IMG/VR virus record: IMGVR_UViG_3300046450_000423
Location: 1 to 24,181 of that record
Length of the DNA: 24,181 nucleotides
Origin: a virus
Direction: 5' to 3' (one strand)
The notes beneath the pieces were generated by a model. It ran no database searches, had not been told where the DNA came from, and was given only the letters and a program-made list of their open reading frames with translations. Both the position numbers and the translations under genes were made by a program. Shown in pieces: positions 3,955 through 13,502 of this stretch (position 1 is its first letter; every line of letters begins with the position of its first letter).

Positions 3955-4821
3955 ATGAAAAATATTTCAACATTAGTTAAAGATATCTATTCCCTTTTTA
4001 CACAGGATGATGGTGTTGTTGTCAGTAAGGAAGTAGCGAGAGAGTTAGCAGATCAAGCTGGTGCAAACATTGCAGACCATATATATAATTCTGTCTATGA
4101 AGTTAGGAAACTTAAAACTAACCTACGCCTTTCTCAAATTGGAAAACCACTAAGACAGATATGGTATAGCTCTAAAGGAGTAAAGGGTGAGGGGATAGAT
4201 GGCCCTACATATATAAAATTCTTATATGGAAATATCTTAGAAGAACTTTTAGTTGCTTTATCAGAACTGTCTGGTCATAAAGTTACAGAATCCCAAAAGG
4301 AAATAGACCTTGATGATATCAAGGGTCATCAGGATGCACGAGTAGATGGTGTGTTGGTAGATTTTAAGAGCGCATCTCACTATGCGTTTAGTAAATTTGG
4401 TATGGATGATCTCTCAAAGAGAGACCCCTTTGGTTATATCTATCAGCTTGCTGCATATGCTAAGAGTAAAAGAGACAAGATAGCTTCTTGGGTTGTAATT
4501 AATAAACAAACAGGTGAGATTGCTGTCTCCAACCTGCATGAATTGGAGATGCCTGATGTATCTGAGAAGATTAGACAAGTTAAACATGCTGTGGGGGAGG
4601 ATAGTCCACCCCCTAGATGTTACGATGATATTCCTGATGGTAAGTCTGGTAACAGGCGTCTGGATTTTGGGTGTGTCTATTGCGTTTATAAGTTACACTG
4701 TTGGTCACACGTTAATAATGGTAAAGGGTTACGCAAGTTTAACTATTCTAATGGACCGAAGTATTTTACACAGATTAGTAAAATGCCTATCGTTGAAGAG
4801 GAGCATTTAATTGCAAGCTAA
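3955..4821 (+). CDS. Cas4/RecB-type PD-(D/E)XK exonuclease with four-cysteine Fe-S motif, 288 aa
   Basis: Exonuclease probably filling the role of T7 gp6 in degrading host DNA and in recombination. Nuclease core: H125-x-D127 (GHQDARVDG), D136-F-K138 (the D-x-K pair) and Y163-Q164-x3-Y168, the QxxxY motif of the RecB/AddB/Cas4 families. The C-terminus has C222, then C240-x2-C243-x5-C249, the spacing seen for the 4Fe-4S cluster in Cas4 and AddB. In those families the first cysteine lies before the nuclease core; here the N-terminal part has no cysteine (IGKPLR where relatives often have GKC.R) and C222 may replace it. ATG 3955 is the first possible start because an in-frame stop lies at 3928-3930. 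It overlaps the methyltransferase start by 11 bases. Nuclease family secure; Fe-S cluster inferred. Confidence 0.87.
   Translation: MKNISTLVKDIYSLFTQDDGVVVSKEVARELADQAGANIADHIYNSVYEVRKLKTNLRLSQIGKPLRQIWYSSKGVKGEGIDGPTYIKFLYGNILEELLVALSELSGHKVTESQKEIDLDDIKGHQDARVDGVLVDFKSASHYAFSKFGMDDLSKRDPFGYIYQLAAYAKSKRDKIASWVVINKQTGEIAVSNLHELEMPDVSEKIRQVKHAVGEDSPPPRCYDDIPDGKSGNRRLDFGCVYCVYKLHCWSHVNNGKGLRKFNYSNGPKYFTQISKMPIVEEEHLIAS
4797..4803 (+). promoter_or_regulatory. Ribosome binding site supporting a TTG start
   Basis: AGAGGAG inside the end of the exonuclease gene lies 7 bases before TTG 4811. It is what fixes the methyltransferase start, because the next in-frame ATG (4862) would remove about 17 residues preceding the SAM-binding motif. 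Confidence 0.65.
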
Positions 4822-5479
4822 TAAACCTATTCGTATACCACCCCTTAGATATTTTCAGCTTATGGAACTGGTAAAATTTTATAAGCCTTCTACTATTCTT
4901 GAGGTGGGATGTTGGGATGGAGAGCATGGTACACAAATGTGTATGGCAGCTTTAGCATCCCATGATTCTAATGTTCATTACATAGGGTATGATTTATTTG
5001 AAGAAGGTACTTCAGTAATGGATGAGAAGGAATTAAATAGTAAATCACGAACAGTTAAAGATAAGATTGAACTTAAATTTAATAAGATATCAGAGGAGTT
5101 TCCACACAGGTTTTCGTATGAGCTTATTAGAGGCGACACTAACCTTACTATGAAAGAACACGTAGTCGATTTTGCTTTTCTTGATGGAGGTCATTCAATA
5201 GGTACAGTCCAGAATGATTATTCTAAATCAAACCTATCGAAGGTTATTGTGTTCGATGATTACTTTACTGAAGATATCGAGGGACGTATACCAGGGGTAT
5301 CCTACCTAGGGACAAACGTAGTGGTAGACGCTATCTTAGATAAAGCTAAGTGGGTGTTCCCATCTAATGATCCTGTACGTGAGGGAGGTATCACTCATCT
5401 CGCAGTCATTGTTAATGAAGGTGCGGCTCCACCTAACAAAGATGTCTTACTTGTTCCCCTTCTTATTTCTAATGGCTAG
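4811..5479 (+). CDS. Class I SAM-dependent methyltransferase, Methyltransf_24-like, 222 aa
   Basis: Rossmann-type methyltransferase. Motif I is E31-V-G-C-W-D-G-E-H-G40 for SAM binding; an acidic residue after the second strand is in GYDLFEEG; and FLDGGHSIGTVQNDY places D125-G-G-H128, typical of the Methyltransf_24 group (small-molecule or sugar O-methyltransferases and related enzymes). The target cannot be read from the sequence. The start is a TTG with a strong ribosome site. It overlaps the exonuclease by 11 bases and endonuclease I by 8, so it sits in the middle of DNA genes. Its whole length, including the C-terminal PS.D...GG..H.AV..N.G block, reappears in degenerate form inside the 759-aa protein at 9417-11696. 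That links it to the sugar genes rather than to DNA methylation, where I would expect a DPPY-type motif. Confidence 0.8.
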   Translation: MQANKPIRIPPLRYFQLMELVKFYKPSTILEVGCWDGEHGTQMCMAALASHDSNVHYIGYDLFEEGTSVMDEKELNSKSRTVKDKIELKFNKISEEFPHRFSYELIRGDTNLTMKEHVVDFAFLDGGHSIGTVQNDYSKSNLSKVIVFDDYFTEDIEGRIPGVSYLGTNVVVDAILDKAKWVFPSNDPVREGGITHLAVIVNEGAAPPNKDVLLVPLLISNG

Positions 5480-6225: not shown

Positions 6226-6553
6226 ACTAAATAACATAGGTGAAGATATACCCCATAGAACAATGGCGGAATCTTGGGATGAATATTGTGTAAGAGTAAT
6301 GCAAGAAAAGAGGACAAAACGAATGCCTGATAATGCGTTATCTAAACAGGTTGAAGGATCACATTATAAAGAATGTAAGATACAGCCTGTAGAATATATT
6401 GTAGGTAATAACCTTGATTTTTTAGAGGGTAATATAGTGAAGTATATTACTAGACATAAGACTAAAGGTGAAGGATCAACAGATATTAAAAAGGTTATTC
6501 ACTATGCAGAATTAATTCTTGAACTTGTTTATGGGGAAAAGAAACTTAAATAG
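6209..6553 (+). CDS. DUF3310 domain protein (related to a region of T7 gp1.7), 114 aa
   Basis: Residues from about 48 to 110 fit DUF3310: VEGSHYKECKIQPVEYI, then NNLDFLEGNIVKYITRHKTKG, then DIKKVIHYAELILELVYG. The domain is common in phages and occurs in T7 gp1.7, reported as a nucleotide kinase, though gp1.7 is longer and kinase activity cannot be assumed here. The first ~45 residues carry no recognisable feature. AAGGAAGAG at about 6195-6203 precedes ATG 6209. The stop is 13 bases before the nrdJ start, and its placement directly before a ribonucleotide reductase is consistent with a role in nucleotide metabolism. Confidence 0.85.
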   Translation: MAYSPELNNIGEDIPHRTMAESWDEYCVRVMQEKRTKRMPDNALSKQVEGSHYKECKIQPVEYIVGNNLDFLEGNIVKYITRHKTKGEGSTDIKKVIHYAELILELVYGEKKLK

Positions 6554-6566
6554 AGGAGTAAATGTT

Positions 6567-8498
6567 ATGGGTTTACCCACAGATTATCAGACCTTCATCC
6601 ACCTATCTCGTTACTCACGATGGTTGGACGAGAGTAATCGTAGAGAAACTTGGGAAGAAACTATTTCCAGGTTAGTAAATTATTTTAAATATCATATAGA
6701 ACATAACCTTGAGATTACTTTAGCAGAGCAAGACGCTGACATCTGGAAAGAGTTATACAATAGTATCCATTCCCTTCAGGTAATGCCTAGTATGCGAGCT
6801 ATGATGGCTGCTGGCCCTGCATTAGAAAGAGAGAATATAGCAGGGTATAATTGTTCATACATACCTATTGATAGTCCTAGATCATTCGATGAGATATTAT
6901 ATATCTTAATGAATGGTACAGGTGTAGGGTATTCAGTGGAGAGACAATATGTAAACAACCTACCCACTGTCCCATTCATAGATATGGAAGAGACTGATGA
7001 TGTTATTAGTGTAGCTGATTCTAAAGAGGGATGGGCTAGAGCCTTTAAAGATTTAATATCTTTCCTATACTCTGGTAGAGTTCCACAAATAAACATGGAT
7101 AAGGTAAGACCTAGTGGGTCTAGGCTTAATGTGTTTGGAGGCAGGGCTTCAGGTCCAGACCCTCTTAAAGCATTATTTGATTTCACTATTAAGAAATTTA
7201 TAAATGCTAAAGGAAGAAAGCTTACCACTATTGAGTGTCATGATATTGTCTGCAAGACAGGTGAGGTAGTTGTTGTTGGTGGGGTTAGAAGATCAGCCTT
7301 AATCTCTCTCTCTAATGTATCAGATGATAGACTACGATCTGCAAAGAAGGGGCAGTGGTGGGAAACTAATCCTGAAAGATCATTAGCAAACAACTCTGCT
7401 GTCTACACAGGTATCCCAGATACAGCAACCTTTATGAAGGAATGGTCTTCTCTCTATGAGAGTAAGTCAGGCGAGAGGGGTATGTTTAATAGAAGCTCTG
7501 CTCAAATGAAAGCAAAGAGTACTGGTAGACGAGAGTGGGATATTGATTTTGGAACTAATCCTTGTTCGGAAATCATCCTTAGACCAAATCAGTTCTGTAA
7601 CTTAACTGAGGTTGTATGTCGTGTAGACGATACACGAGCTAGTCTAAAGAAGAAAATAAGAATGGCTACTATCCTTGGTACAGTACAAGCCACTATGACA
7701 AACTTTGGTTATCTCAGAAAGCGTTGGCAGAATAATACTGAGGAAGAAAGATTACTGGGGGTATCCCTTACAGGGATTATGGACTGTCGTTTAATCAATG
7801 GAGTTAATAAAGATTCCTCTATTGATTCTTTACTAAGTGGCATGAAGAATTATGCTGTTGATATTAATAAAGAATGGGCAGCTAAACTAAACATTCCTCA
7901 GTCTACAGCAGTAACCTGTGTTAAACCTTCTGGTACAGTGAGCCAGTTAGTTGACAGTGCATCAGGCATCCATGCTAGACACTCACCTTATTACATAAGA
8001 ACTGTACGTGGTGATGTTAAAGACCCACTCACACAGTTCATGAGTGAGACTGGTATACCTTATGAGATGGATCAGATGCGTTCAGATAGTACTGTGGTGT
8101 TTTCTTTCCCCATTAAATCTCCTGATAATGCTGTATATAGAAATGATAAAGGGGCTATCGAACAGTTAAAGTTTTGGAAAACTTATGCTGAACATTGGTG
8201 TGAACATAAGCCTTCTGTAACTATCTCTGTGAAAGAGAACGAGTGGGTAGAGGTTGGCGCATGGTGTTGGGCTAACTTTGATTCTCTATCAGGAGTATCT
8301 TTCCTACCCCATACTGACCATACTTATAAGCAAGCTCCTTACCAGGATATAACTAAGAAGGAGTATGAGAAACAGTTGTCAAACTTCCCAGATAAGATTG
8401 ACTGGTCAAAACTTACAGAATGGGAAAAAGAAGATACAACTAAGGGAACACAGGAACTTGCGTGTACAGCAGGTGTCTGTGAACTTGTTGATATATAA
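6567..8498 (+). CDS. nrdJ: Adenosylcobalamin-dependent (class II) ribonucleotide reductase, monomeric type, 643 aa
   Basis: Reduces ribonucleotides to deoxyribonucleotides for phage DNA synthesis, using host-supplied coenzyme B12. Key residues follow the Lactobacillus leichmannii enzyme: C96 (GYNCSY) and C344 (QFCNL) as the active-site disulfide pair, N331-P-C333-S-E335 with the thiyl-radical Cys and catalytic Asn and Glu, VKPSGTVS in the active-site barrel, and the C-terminal shuttle pair C633-x4-C638. It is about 100 residues shorter than the Lactobacillus enzyme (739 aa) but lacks no catalytic residue. I start at ATG 6567 (MGLPTDY), 8 bases after GAGGAG at 6553-6558, rather than at 6519. 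No cobalamin riboswitch precedes it. It needs no separate small subunit or oxygen, and no B12 synthesis gene is present. The assignment is very secure. Confidence 0.95.
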   Translation: MGLPTDYQTFIHLSRYSRWLDESNRRETWEETISRLVNYFKYHIEHNLEITLAEQDADIWKELYNSIHSLQVMPSMRAMMAAGPALERENIAGYNCSYIPIDSPRSFDEILYILMNGTGVGYSVERQYVNNLPTVPFIDMEETDDVISVADSKEGWARAFKDLISFLYSGRVPQINMDKVRPSGSRLNVFGGRASGPDPLKALFDFTIKKFINAKGRKLTTIECHDIVCKTGEVVVVGGVRRSALISLSNVSDDRLRSAKKGQWWETNPERSLANNSAVYTGIPDTATFMKEWSSLYESKSGERGMFNRSSAQMKAKSTGRREWDIDFGTNPCSEIILRPNQFCNLTEVVCRVDDTRASLKKKIRMATILGTVQATMTNFGYLRKRWQNNTEEERLLGVSLTGIMDCRLINGVNKDSSIDSLLSGMKNYAVDINKEWAAKLNIPQSTAVTCVKPSGTVSQLVDSASGIHARHSPYYIRTVRGDVKDPLTQFMSETGIPYEMDQMRSDSTVVFSFPIKSPDNAVYRNDKGAIEQLKFWKTYAEHWCEHKPSVTISVKENEWVEVGAWCWANFDSLSGVSFLPHTDHTYKQAPYQDITKKEYEKQLSNFPDKIDWSKLTEWEKEDTTKGTQELACTAGVCELVDI

Positions 8499-8643: not shown

Positions 8644-9417
8644 ATGAAACGCTTAGATACTATCTATGTAGGATACGATCACAACGAGCAACCATCTTTT
8701 GATGTACTTGTAGAATCTATTAAAAGAAATTCATCTGATACTTATAACATTGTACCTCTGTATGAAGATAGACTGAGGATGATGGGTATGTATTGGCGTG
8801 GCTTTAGTGTTAGGGAGGCTGCGAATTATGATCTACAGAGGTTTGATTATTTAGATAAGAAGCCTTTCTCTACAGATTTTAGCTTCACAAGATTTCTTGT
8901 TCCTATGCTTAATCAATATGAAGGGTTAGCTCTTTATATGGACTGTGATATGTTTGTTAGGGCAGACGTTAAAGAAGTGTTTGATGTAGCTAGGAAAGAC
9001 CCTCAGACTCCTTTATGGTGTGTACATCATGACTATGTACCTAAAGAATCAAGAAAGATGGATAACAAAATCCAAGAAGCATACTCCAAAAAGAATTGGT
9101 CAAGCTTTATGCTATGGAATTGTGAGCATGATGCACATAAAAATCTTACAGTAGGGGATGTAAATACTAAGACAGGGTGGTGGCTACATAATTTTAAATG
9201 GTTGAGTAATGATGGTTACAATATTGGTAAACTCGCACCAGAATGGAATTGGCTAGATGGACATTCACCAGAAACAGTGGAGCCTTGTAACGTACATTTT
9301 ACTACAGGTGGTCCCTCCTTTAAGGGATGGCATCCTAAGAGAGATATAGAAAAAGGTTATGTAGAAGAGTGGCTTAGAGTATTCAAAGAGATACAAATGG
9401 AAGAGGTTATGAGTTAA
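8644..9417 (+). CDS. GT-A fold glycosyltransferase, GT8-like, 257 aa
   Basis: Likely transfers a sugar from a nucleotide-sugar donor. The N-terminus (TIYVGYDHNEQPSFDVLVES) has the opening strand and nucleotide-binding region of GT8-like enzymes, and YMDCDMF places the DxD metal site at D100-C-D102. The later HFTTGGPSFKGWHP (about 218-231) resembles the C-terminal His-Gly region that helps bind donor and metal in this clan. There is no signal peptide or membrane segment, so it acts in the cytoplasm. The ribosome site AAAGG precedes ATG 8644, behind its own promoter-like site and structured leader. Its stop overlaps the next start by one base (TAATG), so the two sugar genes are coupled. The acceptor is unknown; lipopolysaccharide or a virion protein are possibilities. 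Confidence 0.82.
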   Translation: MKRLDTIYVGYDHNEQPSFDVLVESIKRNSSDTYNIVPLYEDRLRMMGMYWRGFSVREAANYDLQRFDYLDKKPFSTDFSFTRFLVPMLNQYEGLALYMDCDMFVRADVKEVFDVARKDPQTPLWCVHHDYVPKESRKMDNKIQEAYSKKNWSSFMLWNCEHDAHKNLTVGDVNTKTGWWLHNFKWLSNDGYNIGKLAPEWNWLDGHSPETVEPCNVHFTTGGPSFKGWHPKRDIEKGYVEEWLRVFKEIQMEEVMS

Positions 9418-11696
9418 TGCTTAAATTTATTACAACATTTTCTGAAGATGGGTATGCAAAGTATGCTAGGAAAATGCTTGAAGGTGTGAAGGAAAACTGG
9501 GGAGAGGGTTTACATCTCACAGCTTTTTACCATGATTTTGATATAGCAGATTATGATTATCCTGTGAGTGATAACATTACTTATAGAAATCTAAATGATA
9601 TTGAAGACCTACATGTGTTTAGAAAAGAACATAAAGATCATGATGGTACTATGGGTAAGAAGGTTCCTTACAACTGGAGAGTAGATGCTATAAAGTTTTG
9701 CCATAAAGTTTTTGGTTTAACTGAGATGGCGTTTGAACTTGCAGAAGAATCTAAGAGATCAGGGTGGCTGATATGGCTTGATGCTGATACGTATACCACT
9801 AAACCTATTACTGATAAAAACTTTATACCTCATTTAAATCCCAAGTCTGAACTTGTTTACCTAGACAGAAAGAATTTTGAATTTGCAGAAACTTCTTTCA
9901 TGGCATTTAATCTTGATTATAGACCTCCTCTTGATCTTCTTGGTGACTTGCGAGGATTCTATATGTCAGGGGAAGTTACAACCTATAGGGAATGGCACGA
10001 TGGCTTTGTCATCTCTCGCCTGATTAACCTATACAGAGCGCATGGTTTAAAAGTTGTCGATCTTACAGGACATATGGATGAGATTAGCAGCCATCTCACA
10101 GGACCACAAGCTTTCGATTCTTCCTTCTTAGGAAACATAATGATCCATCAGAAGGGAGAAAAGAAACATTCAGAGTCTGGTAATCCAGACCCACGCAGTA
10201 ATATGAGATATAAAAAGCTTGGTGATATCCTACAGTATGTTGCACCTAAGAAGATAGTAGAGGTTGGTGAGTGGGATAGTCATAGGGCTATAGGTAGCTG
10301 TACTAAATCCTTTGAGAAAAACAAATCAATTTCTTACATCTTATTTAATGATTTTAAAAACATTAACTTTTCTAAATCTGAAAAACTCTTTAACTCTTAT
10401 AAAGAAGAAAGGGAATCTAAGGGATTAGAATTTACTTTTAAATTTATAAAGGGTGAGATAGACCCAGAGCTAGTTAAAGATGCAGACTATGCTTTCATTG
10501 GAGGGTTTGACGAGCCAGAACAGTTTACAGATGCCTTTAACAAACTAAAACATACTCCTCTTATCGTAATTGATAAGATATATACTGCTGATAAGGATAA
10601 GAAACTTCCTAATGAAAAATATTTAAAGCCTGTTAAAACCTTAGAAGAATTTAAGGCTACTAAAAAATACATCCTCCCTTCAGAAGATGATGTGACTGGT
10701 GGTGGGCGTTGTCATATAGCAGTCGTTATAAATAAGGGAAGTATTGATGCTCTTCCAAGAGAGCTACTACAGGTTCCTATTATAGTTAATCCTAAAGACT
10801 GTGTTCCTAAAGAAGATATCATGGACAATGTAAAAAATAACATGAAGCTTATTCCTACAAAGCATTGGGTTGATAAGACCAGGAACACTAAGGATGTAGG
10901 GATCATTGTATCTGGAGGGCCAAGTACAGATTGGGATGAGTTGCGTAGTGTAATTAAAGAAGAAGAAAAGAATGGCGCGAAGGCTAGGATTATGGCTGTT
11001 AAACATTCCTACCCTACACTACTTAAACAAGGGTTCATCCCTTGGGGTTGTACTATCCTTGATCCTCGATCACTAGAAGGTAAGAGTACACATGGGATAG
11101 TGAGGCGTACCCTCTTTAAAACAATTAGTAAAGAGACTCTATTTTTTATTGCCTCTATGACAGAACCTTCTGTAACTAGATATCTTTTAAAGAAAAAAGC
11201 AAAGCTTATTGGATGGCATGCTTATACGCAAGCTCTTCAAAAGAATATAGAAGAGCAGAAGAATGCTGCACAGTCAGGTAATAAAGCGAAGCTCATTGTA
11301 GAAAAAGATTTAGGTATCGAAGAAGGGGCAACTCTTATAACAGGTGGAACCTGTGCAGCTATGCGAACAATAGGAATTATGCATACGCTGGGCTTTAGAA
11401 AGTTTCATCTATTTGGTTTTGATTGTAATGTTTCAGAGCCATCCAAGAAAAACCTATCAGAATTGAGTGAAGAAGGCGCGCCAAAATTTATGCAGGTATC
11501 AGTAGACGATCATCCCTTTTGGACAACTGGTGAGTTACTTGCTATGGCACAAGACTGCGAAAAGATATTTGAAAGAGATGATGTAGATTTGGATTTAGAA
11601 TTTCATGGTAAAGAAACTCTTGTCGCTGCCTTATGGAACAAATCTATTTCCCAAAAGAAGATAACCTACCAAGAGCTATTAGATATAGGAGATTAA
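9417..11696 (+). CDS. Three-domain protein: glycosyltransferase + degenerate methyltransferase + DUF115 domain, 759 aa
   Basis: Residues 1 to about 255 form a second glycosyltransferase-like domain with a DxD site in LIWLDADTY (D122-A-D124). Residues about 265-450 follow the stand-alone methyltransferase at 4811-5479: RY..L then P..I.EVG.WD, and at the end PS.DDV..GG..H.AV..NKG...........VP. The SAM loop GCWDGEHG has become GEWDSHRA (284-291) and DGGH has become IGGF (361-364), so methyl transfer is unlikely. Residues about 494-740 match DUF115/MAF-type proteins: VGIIVSGGPSTDWDEL (494-509), a central PWGCTILDPR, and FHLFGFDCN. DUF115 is found in sugar-related proteins such as flagellin-modification factors. 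It likely acts in glycan transfer or assembly, coupled to the preceding glycosyltransferase. Domain calls are good; the function is inferred. Confidence 0.85.
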   Translation: MLKFITTFSEDGYAKYARKMLEGVKENWGEGLHLTAFYHDFDIADYDYPVSDNITYRNLNDIEDLHVFRKEHKDHDGTMGKKVPYNWRVDAIKFCHKVFGLTEMAFELAEESKRSGWLIWLDADTYTTKPITDKNFIPHLNPKSELVYLDRKNFEFAETSFMAFNLDYRPPLDLLGDLRGFYMSGEVTTYREWHDGFVISRLINLYRAHGLKVVDLTGHMDEISSHLTGPQAFDSSFLGNIMIHQKGEKKHSESGNPDPRSNMRYKKLGDILQYVAPKKIVEVGEWDSHRAIGSCTKSFEKNKSISYILFNDFKNINFSKSEKLFNSYKEERESKGLEFTFKFIKGEIDPELVKDADYAFIGGFDEPEQFTDAFNKLKHTPLIVIDKIYTADKDKKLPNEKYLKPVKTLEEFKATKKYILPSEDDVTGGGRCHIAVVINKGSIDALPRELLQVPIIVNPKDCVPKEDIMDNVKNNMKLIPTKHWVDKTRNTKDVGIIVSGGPSTDWDELRSVIKEEEKNGAKARIMAVKHSYPTLLKQGFIPWGCTILDPRSLEGKSTHGIVRRTLFKTISKETLFFIASMTEPSVTRYLLKKKAKLIGWHAYTQALQKNIEEQKNAAQSGNKAKLIVEKDLGIEEGATLITGGTCAAMRTIGIMHTLGFRKFHLFGFDCNVSEPSKKNLSELSEEGAPKFMQVSVDDHPFWTTGELLAMAQDCEKIFERDDVDLDLEFHGKETLVAALWNKSISQKKITYQELLDIGD

Positions 11697-12968: not shown

Positions 12969-13502
12969 TTATTTTACCACACTTTTAAAGTTAAATGAAA
13001 TAGACACTCTTGGTTCCTCAGTTAAATTTCTAGTTACACAATGTTTAAGATAAGAAGGGAAGATATAGTATACCCCCTGAGTAGGTTCAAACCAATGCTG
13101 ATTAGTATTTATATAATCTGTTTCCCAGTGAAAAACTAATTTACAAGCACTAGCATTTTCACAAGGATAATAAACAGCAGCTAAATCACAACCATCATTA
13201 CCATGACCATGTAAATTACAACTCATATTTTTTTCTTGAATAAGCGCCCAATGAGAAACTAAATTTAAACTGTATCCTTTCACATGCTCTTCATAAGACT
13301 CAGTTAAAGTCTTTATAAGATGCTGTAACTCACTAGACATGGGTAGTACTGAGTCTTCAAAACGAGCCTCCAAAGGATCAGTAGAAACTCTATTCTTAGA
13401 AGCATTTAAACATTCTAAGGTTAGTTTTTTATTGTTAATATTTTGTTCTAACTTTCCAACTAAAATGGATAACTGGTAAATGATAGCAGAATCAAGTATC
13501 AA
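12969..13502 (-). CDS. 2-oxoglutarate/Fe(II)-dependent oxygenase-like protein, 177 aa
   Basis: Double-stranded beta-helix oxygenase resembling the 2OG-FeII_Oxy_5 group found in marine phages and bacteria. SCNLHGHGNDGCD (94-106) supplies the first metal His (H98 or H100) and a possible acid (D103 or D106), followed by the AAVYYP strand. FEPTQGVYYIFPSYLKH (138-154) gives H154, and EPRVSISFNF (164-172) contains R165, the likely 2-oxoglutarate anchor. Exact metal ligands are uncertain because the HxD motif is not canonical. The start is TTG 13502 with AGGAG six bases upstream; no ATG exists before residue 55. The target (protein residue, nucleobase or small molecule) cannot be read from sequence. 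It lies between the endolysin and the iron-sulfur carrier at the distal end of the late block. Confidence 0.75.
   Translation of the reverse strand: MILDSAIIYQLSILVGKLEQNINNKKLTLECLNASKNRVSTDPLEARFEDSVLPMSSELQHLIKTLTESYEEHVKGYSLNLVSHWALIQEKNMSCNLHGHGNDGCDLAAVYYPCENASACKLVFHWETDYINTNQHWFEPTQGVYYIFPSYLKHCVTRNLTEEPRVSISFNFKSVVK

Follow-up and report, generated by a model that had tools for sequence, protein, structure and literature searches.

A three-domain glycosyltransferase, methyltransferase-like and DUF115 protein forms a widespread viral family, and in one phage clade an intact methyltransferase gene accompanies a worn fused domain

The closest described counterparts of the protein reported here are the Maf flagellin glycosyltransferases, whose central domain (PF01973; structure 5mu5) has the DUF115/Maf_flag10 fold and is preceded by a Rossmann-like domain described as degenerate (PMC11339370). 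A methyltransferase fused to DUF115 has been reported for CA_C2196 of Clostridium acetobutylicum, a bacterial protein of a sugar-modification locus, for which the accessible text of the report names no GT-A domain (PMC4000134). MycE is a metal-dependent sugar O-methyltransferase that uses Asp275, His278 and Asp304 (PMC9275233), and glycosylation of virions by phage glycosyltransferases has been established in mycobacteriophages (PMC12363180). Pelagibacter phage Mosig EXVC030M encodes, as genes 00188 and 00189, adjacent homologs of the two glycosyltransferase units of the present locus, in a cassette with methyltransferases (an FkbM-type one adjoining the glycosyltransferases) and a sulfotransferase.

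Here we analysed a viral sequence of 24,181 nucleotides (IMG/VR record IMGVR_UViG_3300046450_000423, positions 1 to 24,181; “the window”), together with loci of relatives, which carry L numbers. It encodes a chain that shares with Maf the Rossmann-like domain before DUF115 and with CA_C2196, as described in that text, the fusion of methyltransferase and DUF115. Unlike Maf, the chain is phage-encoded, has an additional N-terminal GT-A domain and lacks the C-terminal helical bundle, since DUF115 ends at about residue 747 and the chain 12 residues later, at 759. In Mosig EXVC030M, the two glycosyltransferases are separate genes in reverse order, and no DUF115 was found among the cassette genes tested. 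The chain and its neighbours are laid out as follows:

6519-8498, + strand: ribonucleotide reductase, B12-dependent insertion domain (PF21995)
8644-9417, + strand: partner glycosyltransferase gene, 257 aa, GT8-like (phrog_28018, 1e-39; weak GT8 match)
9417-11696, + strand: three-domain chain, 759 aa, glycosyltransferase, methyltransferase-like and DUF115 (ORF list; order common to 120 full-length chains among the matches listed)
9417-10166, + strand: GT-A glycosyltransferase domain, residues 1-250 (Foldseek; unfused phage homologs)
9780-9788, + strand: DxD site, D122-A123-D124
10179-10814, + strand: degenerate methyltransferase domain, residues 255-466 (homology to Methyltransf_24-matching domains and to ORF 4811-5479)
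10815-11657, + strand: MptE-like/DUF115 (Maf-like) domain, residues 467-747 (PF01973; model against 5mu5 and 8sd5)
11343-11366, + strand: highly conserved DUF115 motif GGTCAAMR (alignment of chains, among the matches listed)
12972-13502, - strand: 2OG-Fe(II) oxygenase gene on the structural-gene strand, adjoining the endolysin (phrog_81, E 8e-22)

The coordinates of the chain gene are exact in the ORF list, and its start codon sits within the stop of the upstream glycosyltransferase gene (TAATG overlap). An initial annotation, made from the letters alone, had proposed the three domains in this order and considered the order undescribed in phages. A protein search of IMG/VR with the window chain returned 38 full-length relatives at 36-82% identity, and an alignment search yielded at least 531 passing stretches. 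The IMG/VR loci that we kept contain, among the matches listed, at least 120 full-length chains, every one with the proposed order. Motif counts given below are based on a set made nonredundant at 95%, which holds 63 of the 120 chains among the matches listed. We sought a bacterial origin of the fusion, and the one cellular match was a 33-kb contig in a Sneathiella metagenome-assembled genome with the same phage synteny. Since 120 chains share one order and the sole cellular record is phage-syntenic, the architecture is real, conserved and essentially viral. Two deposited proteins of uncultured Caudovirales phages resemble the window chain from end to end by Foldseek (A0A6J7X5Q0, E 1e-50, 27% identity; A0A6J5PVH5, E 4e-17, 12% identity); each is named after a single domain, and we found no description of either. 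A literature search for this three-domain protein likewise returned no published description, and the presumed novelty therefore holds for the literature but not for the databases, where A0A6J7X5Q0 was already present. The three-domain chain is a widespread, undescribed viral family, a common protein without a name: tblastn against 50,697 phage records recovered homologs of the glycosyltransferase domain alone and no full-length relative.

The window chain had no match in PHROGs, where its relatives had weak and scattered ones, and sequence searches of the PDB gave no clear relative. The predicted model of the whole chain is of low confidence (pLDDT 74, pTM 0.42), and with so low a pTM it does not fix how the domains sit together. 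The domain boundaries first proposed (1-255, about 265-450 and about 494-740) were roughly right but shifted to 1-250, 255-466 and 467-747. No membrane helix was found in the chain, the partner glycosyltransferase or the stand-alone methyltransferase described below, as expected for the chain if it is a cytoplasmic enzyme.

In the predicted structure, residues 1-250 have a GT-A fold with a DxD site, and Foldseek against the PDB mostly retrieved GT6-type alpha-1,3-galactosyltransferases and ABO enzymes (E 5e-7 and weaker). This likeness to GT6 is purely structural, as the region has no Pfam match and does not belong to CAZy GT6 at the sequence level. Unfused homologs of the domain occur in phages Mosig EXVC030M and MW202713. 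Both acidic residues named by the initial annotation are present and largely conserved, D122 in 62/63 and D124 in 55/63 nonredundant chains among the matches listed. The second Asp is gone (DPL, DPH or DPY) in L018, L023-L032, L037 and L126, and L126 has NTN at the DxD position. All loci with DxD loss fall inside the clade without DGGH (see below); these changes suggest that some lineages may have lost the activity of the glycosyltransferase domain as well. The pairing with the upstream glycosyltransferase is nearly universal: it lies just upstream of 119 of the 120 chains among the matches listed, sometimes with a small ORF between, and the contig of the remaining chain ends there.

The DUF115/MAF assignment of the C-terminal part was confirmed by score and by the fold of solved members. 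PF01973 (cut-off 34.6 bits) matches residues 468-673 with 50.7 bits and also matches each of the 21 members of alignment A1. A separate model of residues 467-747 (pLDDT 91.6, pTM 0.88) had as its best PDB matches Maf 5mu5 (E 5e-7) and the M. jannaschii HPPK 8sd5 (E 1e-6), and the window domain has the short motifs GSGPSID and LGFRELYLFGVD in common with 5mu5. The nearest NCBIfam model is flagellin modification PseD; at 24.8 bits against a cut-off of 670 this match is weak, far short of the score of a full-length PseD protein.

By DNA polymerase, the nearest isolates of the phage are Pelagibacter phages HTVC115P, HTVC104P and HTVC103P (43-44% identity), and the interval that separates the ribonucleotide reductase genes of HTVC115P from its minus-strand genes contains no three-domain gene. 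The interval from the ribonucleotide reductase to the glycosyltransferase often contains a gene of the HSP20 small heat-shock family (L001:4519-4965, Pfam 6.5e-15, and 46 other listed loci); none is listed at this place in the window. Some relatives carry genes that look like aspartate carbamoyltransferase and dihydroorotate dehydrogenase, downstream of the chain in L015, L025, L030 and L031 and beside TerS in L015, L017 and L019, which suggests, by sequence resemblance, phage pyrimidine synthesis. One record of 106,894 bases (L078) contains two copies of the three-domain gene (45130-45810 and 100216-100911), which could be explained by duplication of the gene or by a joined assembly.

The middle domain was described initially as a dead methyltransferase that had lost its SAM loop and its DGGH motif. 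The window copy matches no Pfam model, and we assigned its identity by homology: the corresponding domain matches Methyltransf_24 in 12 of 21 relatives of alignment A1 (2.3e-12 in L102), and the window encodes a second, intact copy that the initial annotation had overlooked. The motif states of the two copies are:

10260-10289, + strand: degenerate SAM loop EVGEWDSHRA, ETGTWNGGRA in most relatives (motif comparison, listed chains)
10500-10511, + strand: lost metal/catalytic motif GGFD, DGGH in most relatives (motif comparison, listed chains)
10572-10577, + strand: lost second acidic site DK, DD in 39/40 DGGH relatives (motif comparison, listed chains)
4811-5479, + strand: stand-alone methyltransferase, intact paralog of the fused domain (Methyltransf_24, 3e-6, above cut-off)
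5183-5194, + strand: intact DGGH of the stand-alone methyltransferase (alignment, DGGH invariant)
5255-5260, + strand: intact DD of the stand-alone methyltransferase (alignment, DD invariant)

In the window clade, the SAM loop, DGGH and DD positions are all altered, and in the window fused domain the SAM-loop glycines, the ribose acid, the D, the H and the DD have changed together. This copy thus has none of the sites of MycE, TylF and NovP (SAM loop, D..H and second acidic site). Across the family, the label of a dead enzyme fits less well. Among the matches listed, DGGH is kept in 40/63 nonredundant chains and is paired with a downstream DD in 39 of these 40, whereas all five window-type chains have DK. 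A further clade of 17 nonredundant chains among the matches listed has GGGN or GSGN together with DH or DN in every case (the GxGN clade) and keeps the SAM loop. The term “dead methyltransferase” therefore suits the window and not the family, most members of which look intact as judged from their motifs. Most fused relatives and the stand-alone gene have the D..H spacing of MycE and, like it, an acidic site further downstream. Against Pfam TylF, L102, a DGGH relative, scores 2e-4 (21.2 bits), below the cut-off of 23.

The stand-alone methyltransferase is homologous to the window fused domain (27% identity, E 2e-23) and retains the ribose acid, DGGH and DD; its D..H and downstream acidic site make it a putative MycE/TylF-type enzyme, while Pfam TylF gave no match to it. 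Homologs with intact DGGH and DD occur in three of the four other window-clade records (L001, L047 and L048) and in L050; the fourth record, L049, a 13.7-kb fragment, has none. Apart from L050, a search of whole records found no free-gene homolog outside the window clade, and tblastn against the phage records found no homolog. The window clade adjoins L055/L059/L060 in a tree of DUF115 (support 85). A tree of the methyltransferase places the free-standing copy beside the fused domains of the same three loci (97/85) and the worn fused copies of the window clade on a long branch. The free copy thus occupies the position that the fused domain of the window clade itself should have. This is most simply explained if a copy of the domain left the chain and the one that remained there decayed.

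The GxGN clade has a different, unrelated methyltransferase gene (Methyltransf_23 type) directly downstream of the chain in 33/33 testable loci, as against 0/72 other loci with at least 700 bases downstream of the chain (61 intact, 8 window-type and 3 DGGN). By whole records, the distribution is 12/12 GxGN versus 0/38 others. Thus, two clades have lost the motif and each has a separate methyltransferase gene. This amounts to at most two events of loss with replacement, and the AU test (p 0.25) does not reject a tree in which the motif was lost once. A sub-lineage of three loci (L120, L122 and L124) breaks the pattern: the H and the DD have given way to DGGN and NN, and no replacement methyltransferase was found in their incomplete records. 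Within its own clade the worn domain evolves with a dN/dS of about 0.12, a rough value, as most pairs are so divergent that dS is close to saturation. Purifying selection implies that the domain is probably kept as a scaffold, which makes the initial suggestion of such a role plausible.

The identities of the domains, the states of their motifs, the pairing of the genes, the selection on the worn domain and the place of the free copy in the tree are observations; beyond them, we infer what chemistry, sugar, acceptor and purpose the pathway may have. A short O-methylated glycan is the product suggested by the two glycosyltransferases, the sugar-type methyltransferase and the Maf-like fold, and we consider it an evenly balanced proposition that genes 8644-9417, 9417-11696 and 4811-5479 jointly build such a glycan with the worn fused domain as scaffold or spacer. 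The upstream glycosyltransferase and the GT-A domain would each draw on host nucleotide-sugars to add one sugar, the stand-alone MycE/TylF-like enzyme would methylate a sugar hydroxyl, and the Maf-like DUF115 domain would carry out the system's defining transfer, possibly to Ser/Thr of a protein. Most relatives would house the methylation step within the chain itself. The ancestor of the window clade would have gained a copy of the methyltransferase domain as a separate gene; the copy remaining in the chain would have lost SAM and metal binding and may serve as a spacer or an acceptor-binding scaffold. A worn fused domain with a separate intact copy nearby suggests that a methylated sugar structure is built and that one step has moved to a new gene. 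A search of 20 records for a CMP-sugar synthetase found none, and a nonulosonate donor would have to be supplied by the host.

With regard to the acceptor, phage glycosyltransferases that act on host surface glycans against superinfection are well known, and the same enzymes could instead place a methylated sugar on host lipopolysaccharide or another envelope glycan and thereby block superinfection. A soluble chain could work on lipid-linked precursors, and the unfused homologs in Mosig EXVC030M lie in a sugar cassette with a sulfotransferase, but we saw no membrane-anchored glycosyltransferase, flippase or acyltransferase in the cassette, and the nearest structural match of the DUF115 domain is a protein O-glycosyltransferase; modification of the host envelope is a genuine but minority possibility. 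The neighbours of the chain include a holin and the terminase small subunit, which is compatible with glycosylation of virions, and we slightly favour a cytoplasmic virion protein over the host surface as acceptor.

The DUF115 family takes in pterin pyrophosphokinases too, and the Pfam name (MptE-like) together with the second rank of HPPK 8sd5 in the Foldseek search could indicate that the chain is an auxiliary metabolic enzyme of this kind. We regard this as improbable, given that the domain is fused to a glycosyltransferase and a sugar-type methyltransferase, is paired with a second glycosyltransferase and has flagellin modification PseD as its nearest NCBIfam model. It seems just as improbable that the window middle domain still binds SAM and methylates by a changed mechanism while the stand-alone gene serves otherwise; purifying selection and the presence of E282, G284 and H433 in 63/63 nonredundant chains among the matches listed would agree with an active domain, but the joint alteration of its SAM-loop glycines, ribose acid, D, H and DD, and the retention of the ribose acid, DGGH and DD by the paralog, argue against it. 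DNA glycosylation exists in phages, and transfer to hydroxymethylated bases of the phage's own DNA would be another use for such enzymes. We rejected DNA hypermodification because a hydroxymethylase of the thymidylate synthase type (PF00303) is absent from the window and from 19 related records of up to 107 kb, which leaves this the least probable reading, with very little in its favour.

Overall, the chain and the free methyltransferase offer a readable evolutionary case, in which an enzyme domain was apparently copied out of a fusion and the dead original left in place. In a broader and rather doubtful extension, aquatic podovirus-like phages would possess a Maf-like protein glycosylation system that equips their virions with O-methylated glycans; at least two lineages would have moved its methyltransferase domain out of the chain or replaced it, and would have kept the dead domain as an obligatory scaffold. 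If such a virion-glycosylation system is real, phage coats with methylated sugars would be widespread in aquatic phages.
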